DNA of 64,000 nt from positions 372,001 through 436,000 of the forward strand of contig NZ_JACJOT010000006.1 of the NCBI RefSeq assembly GCF_014695715.1, in the 5' to 3' direction. This DNA is from Microcoleus sp. FACHB-68 (lineage in GTDB: Bacteria; Cyanobacteriota; Cyanobacteriia; Cyanobacteriales; Oscillatoriaceae). The position numbers and the translations under genes are program-made. The notes under the pieces are model-generated. The model was not told the origin of the DNA and searched no databases. It worked only from the letters and a program-made list of their open reading frames with translations. Below are positions 18,769 to 21,824 of the stretch, in pieces (the stretch's first letter is position 1; each line of letters starts with the position of its first letter).

Positions 18769-19002
18769 AACCGAGAAGCCGTAACGCCGGCCAAGTTATA
18801 TGAAGAAATCTTGCCGAAAGTTTCTTGGCGGGAATTGCTAGAGGCGTTAGAATCCCTCGAAGCTAGAATGTTTCTTGAAGCCGGTGAATCAGGCTTAACG
18901 CTGCAACCCGTCATTATGGAATATGTGACACAACACTTTATCACAACCATTGACAGGAGATTGTCACCCCAAACTTCAACTGTTTTAGAACTGGTGCTTT
19001 AA
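18769..19002 (+). pseudogene. Remnant of an NB-ARC (STAND NTPase) protein
   Basis: A reading frame from just after a stop at 18766 to the stop at 19000 gives LLEALESLEARMFLEAGESG and then QPVIMEYVTQHF. This is the winged-helix end of the NB-ARC module found in large cyanobacterial NB-ARC/WD40 proteins, where the usual text is LLEALESL...FTLQPVVMEYVTE. The nucleotide-binding half and any WD40 repeats are gone, and the frame begins mid-domain. It is therefore a decayed fragment rather than a small gene. Confidence 0.7.
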
Positions 19003-19056: not shown

Positions 19057-21696
19057 TTAAATAGCCCTCATCGGATCGAGAGCCACCCGAAAACCGACGA
19101 AGTTGTAGCTGAAGACCGACATCAAGTCACCACGATTCGCACTGCGGCAGTACCTGGGGTAGTTTTTCCAAGAACCTCCACGCTGCAACCGAAAATTACT
19201 ATCTCCTCCACTTTCCCACGCACTGCCATCAGAAGTAGCATTGTTGTAATTTTCATGCCAGACATCTTGACACCACTCCCAAACATTGCCGTGCATATCA
19301 TACAGTCCGAAGGCATTGGGTGGAAAACTCCCTACATCGGTTGTTTGTTTGCGGTTAACGCCTTTCGGTACTGAGGCGTAGGTGGCGTTGCCATCATAGT
19401 TAACTAAAAAAGGGGTGATTGTCTCGCCAAAGTAAAATGGGGTGGTGGTGCCGGCGCGGCAGGCATATTCCCACTCTGCCTCGCTGGGTAAACGATAGTT
19501 GCGTCCTGTTTTTTCCGAGAGTTTCTGGCAAAATTCAACGACATCATTCCAAAATACATTTTCCACCGGCCTGTTATTACCTTTAAATTTAGCCGGGTTA
19601 TTGCCCATCACTGCTTGCCACTGTGCTTGGGTGATGGGATATTTTCCTAATAAAAACGGCTGTAGCGTTACCCAATGCTGTGGACTTTCACTGCTAAATC
19701 GTCCTACTTCCGTGTTTGGGGAACCCATGAGAAATGTGCCGCCGGGAATTGACACCATTTCCAGAATTACATTGTTACCAAGTTTTTCAGCAAAAACTTC
19801 TGCTTGTCTTTGCTGACTGTTAACAATTTTTCCTTGAGCATCGACGGTAACAGTTGTGAATTCAAAAGAGGAAGTTGGAAGGGCAGACGCTGCAATCACT
19901 GTAGTCTGTTGAGACGGCACGGAAGGAGTGGGAAGAACCGGCGCTGAGATCGCTGCGGGAACGAGTGCCACCCGAAAACCGAAGTGGTAGTTCCTGAAGT
20001 TCGGCCCGTACCTGATACGAAGCGCACTACGGCAGTACGCGGGGTTGAGGTTCCAAGAACCTCCACGCCGCAACCGGTATTTGCTATCTCCCCCAATTTC
20101 CCACGCACTGCCATCAGAAGGCGCACCGTTGTAATTTTCATGCCAGACATCTTGACACCACTCCCAGACATTGCCGTGCATATCGTACAGCCCAAAGGCA
20201 TTGGGCGGGAAACTCCCGACATCGGTTGTTTGTTTTCGACATTGACCCTGTGGCCCAGAAGCGTAAATATAAATGCCATCATAGTTAGCCAAATCAGGTG
20301 TAATTGTCTCGCCAAAGTAAAACGGGGTGGTAATGCCGGCGCGGCAGGCATATTCCCACTCCGCCTCGCTGGGTAAACGATAGTTACGCCCGGTTTTTTG
20401 CGAGAGTTTCTGGCAAAATTCAACGGCATCATTCCAAGATACATTTTCTACTGGCCTGTTATTTCCTTTAGAGTTAGCGGGGTTATTGCCCATCACTGAT
20501 TGCCACTGCGCTTGAGTGACAGGATATTTTCCCAGGAAAAACGGCTGTACCGTTACCCGATGCTGAGGACTTTCATAGCCATATCGCCCTTCTTCCGTTT
20601 CTGGGGAACCCATGAGAAATCTGCCGCCCTTAATTGACACCATTTCTAAACTGACGTTGTTACTGAGTTTTTCTGTAAAAACGTCTGCTTGTCCCTGCTG
20701 CCGATTAACAATTTTTCCTCTAGCATTGACGGTAACAGTCATGAATTGAAAGGGATAAGTTGGAAGAATGGGTGCTGCAATTACTGTACTCGCTTGAGAT
20801 GGGACGGAAGGAGTCGGAAGGACTGGTGGCGAGATAATAGTCTTCGTTTGAGGTGGGGCTGTTGGCAGCGCTGATCCTGACACTAAAGAATTCAGCGCTT
20901 GCAAAGCTTCTGTCGCATTCGCATAGCGCCCAGTGAAGTGATCTCGCACCATTTTGCTTAAAATGTCTGCTAACCCATCGCTCACAGAAGCGTAATTTTT
21001 CCAAATCACTTCACCATCATTATCTTCTTCGAGCAAATCAGGCTCTACTCCAGTCAAAGCAAAAATGACTGTCCTCCCCAGTGCGTAAATATCGCTGCTT
21101 GGTTTTGGCTTCCCCATTGCCTGTTCGCTGGGCATAAAACCAAGCGTTCCAATAGAAACCGTGCGGCTCGTTTTTCCTGATAAAATTGTCTTCTGAATGC
21201 CAATCTCCTTAACTGCTCCAAAGTCAATTAGCATCAACTTGCCATCTTTTCGCCGCATGATATTCTGGGGCTTAATATCTCGGTGGATGATATTATTCTG
21301 GTGAACATAGGCCAGGATTTCTAAAATATCCTGTAATAATTTAATCGCATAAGTTTCGCTTAACTTTTTGCCTGGACTCAATTCTTTGCTTAAGTCATGC
21401 CCTTCGATGAATTCCTGAATGAGATAAAATTCTTGATTTTCTTCAAAATAAGCAAACAGCTTGGGAATGCGCTCATGGTTTTGCGCCAGTTTATATAAAA
21501 TTTCTGCTTCTTTTTGAAATAACCGCTGGATATCCGGTTCAATTGCTTGGGGATGAAGCCGCTTGACGACACATTTAGGCTTGGGAGTGATGGGAATATC
21601 TAAATCGTTTGCCAAATAGGTTTCCGCAAACCCGCCGCTTCCCAGCACTTTGACGATTTCGTAGCGATTCCGTAGTATTTGGCCGGCAACGAGCAT
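19057..21696 (-). CDS. Ser/Thr protein kinase with two FGE-sulfatase modules
   Basis: This is a eukaryotic-type kinase (residue numbers from the longest frame, first codon at 21747). It has GSGGFAET at 36-43, Lys62, HRD at 155-157 and DFG at 175-177, all intact. After a Pro/Thr-rich linker come two tandem formylglycine-generating-enzyme-like modules, about 372-600 and 645-893, some 80% alike. One of the two FGE cysteines is missing, so formylglycine synthesis is not expected; the modules more likely bind ligand through the C-type-lectin-like fold. Both modules end in a hypervariable stretch (listed separately). The start at 21696 is chosen because GGAG lies 8 bases upstream and the family starts MLVAGQIL; the frame is open 17 codons further. 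Confidence 0.9.
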   Translation of the reverse strand: MLVAGQILRNRYEIVKVLGSGGFAETYLANDLDIPITPKPKCVVKRLHPQAIEPDIQRLFQKEAEILYKLAQNHERIPKLFAYFEENQEFYLIQEFIEGHDLSKELSPGKKLSETYAIKLLQDILEILAYVHQNNIIHRDIKPQNIMRRKDGKLMLIDFGAVKEIGIQKTILSGKTSRTVSIGTLGFMPSEQAMGKPKPSSDIYALGRTVIFALTGVEPDLLEEDNDGEVIWKNYASVSDGLADILSKMVRDHFTGRYANATEALQALNSLVSGSALPTAPPQTKTIISPPVLPTPSVPSQASTVIAAPILPTYPFQFMTVTVNARGKIVNRQQGQADVFTEKLSNNVSLEMVSIKGGRFLMGSPETEEGRYGYESPQHRVTVQPFFLGKYPVTQAQWQSVMGNNPANSKGNNRPVENVSWNDAVEFCQKLSQKTGRNYRLPSEAEWEYACRAGITTPFYFGETITPDLANYDGIYIYASGPQGQCRKQTTDVGSFPPNAFGLYDMHGNVWEWCQDVWHENYNGAPSDGSAWEIGGDSKYRLRRGGSWNLNPAYCRSALRIRYGPNFRNYHFGFRVALVPAAISAPVLPTPSVPSQQTTVIAASALPTSSFEFTTVTVDAQGKIVNSQQRQAEVFAEKLGNNVILEMVSIPGGTFLMGSPNTEVGRFSSESPQHWVTLQPFLLGKYPITQAQWQAVMGNNPAKFKGNNRPVENVFWNDVVEFCQKLSEKTGRNYRLPSEAEWEYACRAGTTTPFYFGETITPFLVNYDGNATYASVPKGVNRKQTTDVGSFPPNAFGLYDMHGNVWEWCQDVWHENYNNATSDGSAWESGGDSNFRLQRGGSWKNYPRYCRSANRGDLMSVFSYNFVGFRVALDPMRAI
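19096..19170 (-). other. Putative DGR-type variable region, second FGE module
   Basis: These 25 codons, from the TGG after RGGS to the codon before GFRVA, differ from the matching stretch of the first module at 28 of 75 bases. The flanking DNA is about 90% identical. Fourteen codons end in C, the NNC form expected when AAC template codons are mutated at adenines. It is followed by a shared block at 19077-19095. Confidence 0.65.
19981..20055 (-). other. Putative DGR-type variable region, first FGE module
   Basis: This is the counterpart of the stretch at 19096-19170. Codons include CTC, TAC, ATC, TTC and CAC around invariant CRSA. Fourteen of 25 codons end in C. The conserved block GGTTTTCGGGTGGCNCTCG follows at 19962-19980, at the place where DGRs keep their initiation-of-mutagenic-homology element. 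Confidence 0.65.
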
Positions 21697-21824
21697 AGTG
21701 GGTACTCCGGGCAGTGGCAATTTAATTGATTTTCGCATAATTGCCATTGCGCCGGCACCTTACTGATGCCAGCTATCTTGCAGCTCTCAACAAATCTTAT
21801 TAAAAAATAAGACCCTGTTTAAAA

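Follow-up and report, generated by a model that had tools for sequence, protein, structure and literature searches.

Does the densely changed block in the first FGE module of a kinase gene of Microcoleus sp. FACHB-68 represent a variable region (VR) of a diversity-generating retroelement (DGR), and if so, what became of the element that wrote it? The gene lies in a stretch of 64,000 nucleotides, here called the window, of a genome referred to as G000. Its protein product carries an N-terminal kinase domain (PF00069) followed by two FGE-sulfatase modules (PF03781), which form a repeat with a spacing of 885 bp (Table 1). VR1 extends over approximately 90 nt from a conserved GGSW to a GFR motif, and VR2 does likewise in module 2. 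The VRs stand at the ends of both FGE modules, and VR1 is internal to the protein. A third VR of G000 was found in a second kinase-FGE gene (G000:C16:137349-137438). Between the kinase-FGE-FGE gene and its neighbour, a 77-codon open frame on the plus strand (18769-19002) gives the impression, from its sequence, of a fragment of a larger regulatory protein.

Table 1. The kinase-FGE-FGE gene, its domains and its variable regions (positions in the window)
Feature	Position	Strand	Remarks
Kinase-FGE-FGE gene	19057..21747	-	896 aa
Protein kinase domain PF00069, residues 29-282	20902..21663	-	Domain scan; coordinates computed from residues
FGE module 1, PF03781, residues 368-594	19966..20646	-	Domain scan; coordinates computed from residues
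FGE module 2, second PF03781 stretch	19081..19761	-	Limits derived from the 885-bp repeat spacing, not from scan output
Variable region 1 (VR1), GSWNLNPAYCRSALRIRYGPNFRNYHFGFR	19972..20061	-	Holds the reported block 19981-20055
Variable region 2 (VR2), GSWKNYPRYCRSANRGDLMSVFSYNFVGFR	19087..19176	-	Same frame in module 2

The preliminary description had proposed the block as a DGR variable region after comparing the two modules with each other. An exact recount returned the same 28 differing bases out of 75 in the 25-codon block, 16 non-synonymous changes among 17 altered codons and 14 of 25 codons of module 1 ending in C; codon positions 1 and 2 indeed take 22 of the 28 differences (13, 9 and 6 at positions 1, 2 and 3). 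The flanking identity of about 90% was found to apply when the poorly matching stretch 20239-20273 is left out (19/183 and 33/297 differences, approximately 89-90% identity), whereas the whole flank 20056-20573, upstream in the gene, differs at 73 of 516 bases (86% identity). Third positions dominate the changes in this flank (13/16/44 at positions 1/2/3). The density of changes is not unique to the block: among 242 stretches of 25 codons the densest hold 29-36 differences (19942-20025), sliding into the diverging module end, and the stretch 20236-20310 also holds 28, with a profile of 5/8/15. The unusual feature of the block is its codon-position profile and not the number of changes. Its comparison partner in module 2 is itself a VR, that is, one VR had been compared with another.

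The module and the VR frame of the genus are common to relatives that carry bAvd, a reverse transcriptase (RT) and a template. The cassette of G003, a member of the same family, consists of a kinase-FGE target, bAvd (PF22296) and a 351-aa RT with the motif GLPIGNLTSQ, followed by an AAC-rich template. G100 has a target, an RT and a template together with bAvd; G238 has bAvd, RT and template, and templates were also read in G006, G155 and G170.

Columns with a majority of adenine in five of these templates (G003, G006, G100, G155 and G170), none of which belongs to the genus of the window, were defined as adenine (A) columns. This gave 28 A columns among the 90 columns of eight VRs from three species of the genus (G000, G001 and G002). 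All 28 vary among the eight VRs, compared with 21 of the 62 others (p=2.5e-10); the Fisher tests take columns as independent, and the eight VRs are kin. The same was seen within codon position 1 (16/16 A columns and 4/14 others vary) and codon position 2 (12/12 and 5/18). Mean pairwise differences amounted to 0.62 and 0.57 at A columns and to 0.07, 0.13 and 0.14 at the other columns of positions 1, 2 and 3. Repeats with single templates gave p=7e-10 to 4e-8 for G003, G006, G100 and G155, p=1e-8 for L133, p=8e-7 for L136 and, in an ungapped comparison with a template that apparently has an indel, p=2e-5 for L135. At 9-18 of 63 non-A sites the L136 template (from G238), which is non-cognate, does not agree with the genus VRs. 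Between modules 1 and 2, differences fall on 17 of the 28 predicted A columns and on 11 of the 62 others (p=8e-5). Of 88 AAN codons, 74 have C as their third base (the others being 12 T, 1 A and 1 G); two-fold codons ending in Y in the flanks have C in 168 of 479. Confinement of the variation to A columns is shown in the form of a strong enrichment, with adenines taken from templates of other genera.

These data bear on the reading that ordinary duplication and positive selection on exposed loop residues, with no retroelement involved, produced the block. Such selection would fit the mostly non-synonymous changes and their place in a loop region of a binding-type fold, but the variation tracks the A columns of other genera's templates also within codon positions 1 and 2, third bases stay C, and the paralogous locus C does not vary. 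At this third kinase-FGE locus, which lacks the signature and was matched in G000 by sequence only, 1-3 of 28 A columns and 5-6 of 62 others differ. Neither ordinary drift nor residue selection would predict the combination of A columns and third-base C. We rejected positive selection alone on the third bases and A columns and consider this reading extremely improbable, and we are nearly certain that the VRs were written by a DGR.

Sequence comparisons of module 1 gave matches to PvdO (2.2e-43), Treponema TvpA (PDB 2y3c; 9.7e-28), which we take to be a DGR variable protein, and FGE (about 5e-26), and the VR aligned with the C-terminal part of the PvdO, TvpA and FGE chains. Judged from the listing, the matched PDB chains apparently are not kinase-FGE-FGE fusions. 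In the FGE alignment the cysteine of the GGSYMC motif, presumably the catalytic one, falls on a variable codon, which reads leucine in module 1. Predicted from 16 aligned rows, a structure of module 1 reached a mean pLDDT of 50.4 and was set aside. By analogy, the FGE module may serve as a binding rather than an enzymatic domain, tuning or triggering the kinase. In the available parts of the respective papers, a binding-domain role with a kinase is proposed for cyanobacterial DGR targets (PMC7517822) and a conflict-sensor role for related systems (PMC10907252 and PMC12691664).

The genomes of the genus were searched for the writer of these VRs. The G000 assembly comprises 6.5 Mb in 19 contigs and is 99.92% complete; G000, G001 and G002 each reach at least 99%. 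Two RTs of G000 exceed the PF00078 cut-off, but their best PADLOC models are the defence RTs UG19 and Drt8 and they were rejected as DGR RTs. A single PF00078 match was found in each of G001 and G002; read side by side, these are nearly the same sequences as the two G000 RTs. The UG19-type RT of G000 (L001:1072-3418, contig C8) is divided into two overlapping frames, one of 335 aa followed by another ORF that matches UG19 by itself; the G001 relative (L114) is one long open frame. A profile built from two DGR RTs detected no DGR RT in G000, G001 or G002 (best values 1.2e-13, 1.0e-7 and 5.8e-4, respectively) and gave 2.8e-162 or better for 11 near-full-length matches in other genomes. Protein searches and PF22296 revealed no bAvd in the three genomes. 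VR patterns with 2-3 mismatches found the three VRs of G000 and no template, and a looser VR pattern found four places in G001 and three in G002, none with a template-like AAC run. A template-like pattern returned two VRs in G000 and nothing further there, and nothing in G001 or G002. Remnants of RT or Avd were not seen by tblastn in the window or in L101-L105 (best E=0.49; the positive control was found).

The preliminary description had looked to a DGR RT and an adenine-rich template elsewhere in the genome; within its assembly, G000 has neither. Its naming of a DGR variable region finds support in the A columns of foreign templates and in the variation in three species, whereas a working DGR in G000 is unsupported (no DGR RT, bAvd or adenine-rich template). 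We judge the block to be a DGR-written VR, the gene having two of them, and an orphan as far as the G000 assembly shows. G001 being a metagenome-assembled genome, a gap in assembly or binning could explain why the cassette is missing; on balance we lean towards a writer that the cell itself has lost over one that the assembly alone lacks.

The VR pattern, allowed up to 2 mismatches, was also run against 291 genomes from the order, themselves a sample from a larger group. It matched 23 genomes and the reversed-pattern control none; a match alone does not prove a VR in each genome. Ten of the 23 have a DGR-like RT at E<=1e-30, two of these RTs being doubtful (G193 partial with a stop, G224 weak), and 13 do not. 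A partial bAvd match lies approximately 190-220 bp from a VR match in four genomes (G115:C1:4909586-4910038, G193:C8:1837-2235, G016:C1:3994852-3995175 and G084:C102:3121-3443), and from the sequence these places look like decayed DGR cassettes. G004, of the same family and 95% complete, has VR-like FGE ends (L109, L054) with no match to the DGR-RT profile or to bAvd and is a possible further orphan.

Comparison within the genus showed that the gene of the window (locus A) is syntenic in G001 and G002, with adjoining DNA approximately 90-92.5% identical. The second VR locus is syntenic in G000, G001 and G002, with neighbours 91-94% identical; the gene beside it is, judged from its sequence, presumably RNase-J-like. 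Between syntenic VRs (9 pairs), 12-21 of the 28 A columns differ, against 4-10 of the 62 others; the pairing of modules at locus A is a choice, as G002 has one module only. The block is therefore clearly not identical across strains, a comparison that had been proposed together with the genome search. Module make-up varies in the genus: when L101 and L102 are set against the window gene, the locus A kinase gene has one FGE module in G002 and two in G000 and G001, and module 2 of G001 contains an extra repeated stretch.

Such differences could also have arisen if recombination of entire FGE modules had moved old DGR products between loci and between species, with no rewriting within the genus. 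The variable number of modules between species is consistent with this, as is the module tree, which is unresolved, the flanks of all pairs, orthologues and paralogues alike, being 82-89% identical. It is opposed by the alleles themselves: no two of the eight VRs share one (A-column identity 7-17/28, flanks >81%), and exchange alone would require an unseen donor pool. We therefore hold shuffling without rewriting to be very doubtful. Because of the module tree and the like identity of all flanks, module exchange may nevertheless account for part of the difference between species, and the claim that the VRs were rewritten strictly after speciation is weakened by the same tree.

Drift at sites without template adenine was used to ask whether the VRs are active or frozen. 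Compared with their own consensus, the genus VRs differ at 1-5 of 54 conservative non-A sites, VR2 of the window being the most drifted of the eight (5/54), and the VRs within G000 differ from each other at 3-8 of 54. As a yardstick, six VRs adjoining the template in G003, G006, G100 (two), G155 and G170 have no non-A mismatches and three remote VRs of G003 and G006 have 1-2. In the DGR-bearing sister genus, 7 of 63 non-A sites are mismatched in a VR situated approximately 2.3 kb from the G006 template, and four remote VRs show 3-8 such mismatches. At two remote VRs of this sister genus (L059/L068 and L089/L090) the residues are the same in the species G006 and G003, an example of how orthologues appear when left unrewritten; remote targets can therefore stay unrewritten while a cassette is present. 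The drift in the genus exceeds that of most template-adjacent targets and resembles that of remote targets coexisting with a cassette. Sequence drift favours frozen VRs, but only to a modest degree, given that remote VRs of the DGR-bearing sister genus have drifted just as far. A simple ancient freeze is hard to square with the difference of the VRs between species: the machinery either disappeared once the species had split, and more than once, or lies outside the assemblies.

If it does lie outside, a DGR might still be present and active, either on a plasmid or another element that the assemblies lack or in a fraction of the population, and rewrite the chromosomal VRs in trans. In favour of this, VRs of different species are as different at A columns as paralogues, and Thiohalocapsa PB-PSB1 offers a precedent in the available part of PMC10907252. 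Cyanobacterial plasmids do carry DGR cassettes: among 31 matching records, 6 have a DGR RT with 63-70.5% identity, and the four of these six that were inspected contain bAvd and RT. Their template-like copies, however, have at least 16 non-A mismatches (ungapped). Also against an active element are the absence of the cassette from all three nearly complete assemblies and the drift of the genus VRs at non-A sites described above. FGE module DNA matched 49 plasmid records, and among the 15 matches listed one covers at least 80% of the query. Viral contigs revealed no exact VR/TR pattern match and no confirmed DGR RT relative; 90 phage records matched the DGR RT, all below 60% identity, and the ten matches listed are not cyanophages by name. 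A still active DGR is in our view rather unlikely.

The explanation that we find probable overall is that mutagenic retrohoming by a cyanobacterial DGR of the kinase-FGE type wrote the VRs, that the writer has been lost here and that the VRs are frozen. An AAC-codon-rich template RNA would have been reverse-transcribed, bases being inserted at random opposite adenines; the resulting cDNA would have replaced the end of the FGE module, leaving NNC codons. Both modules of the window gene, and as a third case the second kinase-FGE gene, would have received a VR in this way, from a writer that presumably acted from elsewhere on remote targets. After the probable loss of the writer in G000, the VRs may now be frozen binding sites of a sensor kinase. 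A further idea, which we regard as quite improbable, is that sensor kinases at fixed chromosomal loci are kept DGR-ready and owe their rewriting to an itinerant DGR, carried by a mobile element that enters lineages and later disappears from them, so that mutator and targets are apart.

Several elements of this picture are already published, namely kinase-FGE targets, remote VRs, RT-less paralogues and tandem VR modules. Vallota-Eastman et al. 2020 (PMC7517822) described cyanobacterial DGRs whose variable proteins join a kinase to a CLec domain and have remote paralogues. As far as the available part of that paper goes, its systems resemble the present one in the fusion of a kinase to a C-terminal FGE/CLec module with a VR and in dispersed remote targets, and the Nostoc PCC 7120 paralogue all3226 has TR-VR homology and no nearby RT, its authors considering removal of the machinery possible. 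The genomes there were picked for a complete cassette, whereas the three genomes of this genus yielded neither RT nor template, and remote matches there are near gene 3' ends, whereas one of the two VR modules described here is internal to the gene. In Thiohalocapsa PB-PSB1, according to the accessible part of PMC10907252, targets of one DGR have no matching template elsewhere in the genome and the intact RT is found in structural variants. Shared with our locus are remote targets, for which diversification in trans is published there, and tandem VR-bearing CLec domains, with the RT there only in structural variants of the population. The targets there are parts of vWA/STAND/MoxR systems whose RT is present in the genome or population; our target, by contrast, is a kinase, and the searches found no RT. 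As far as the limited literature covered here goes, these VRs seem not to have been described; the work found on DGRs that names Microcoleus does so as a comparison and in a reference.

The interesting part is the combination of a writer missing from all three genus genomes with a strong difference of the VRs between species. Remote DGR targets are now seen also in a genus where no machinery was found, and templates of other genera can, through their adenines, reveal a VR whose cognate template is missing. The 13 of 23 VR-pattern genomes without a DGR-like RT at the threshold used suggest that RT-based surveys may under-count DGR-shaped proteins.
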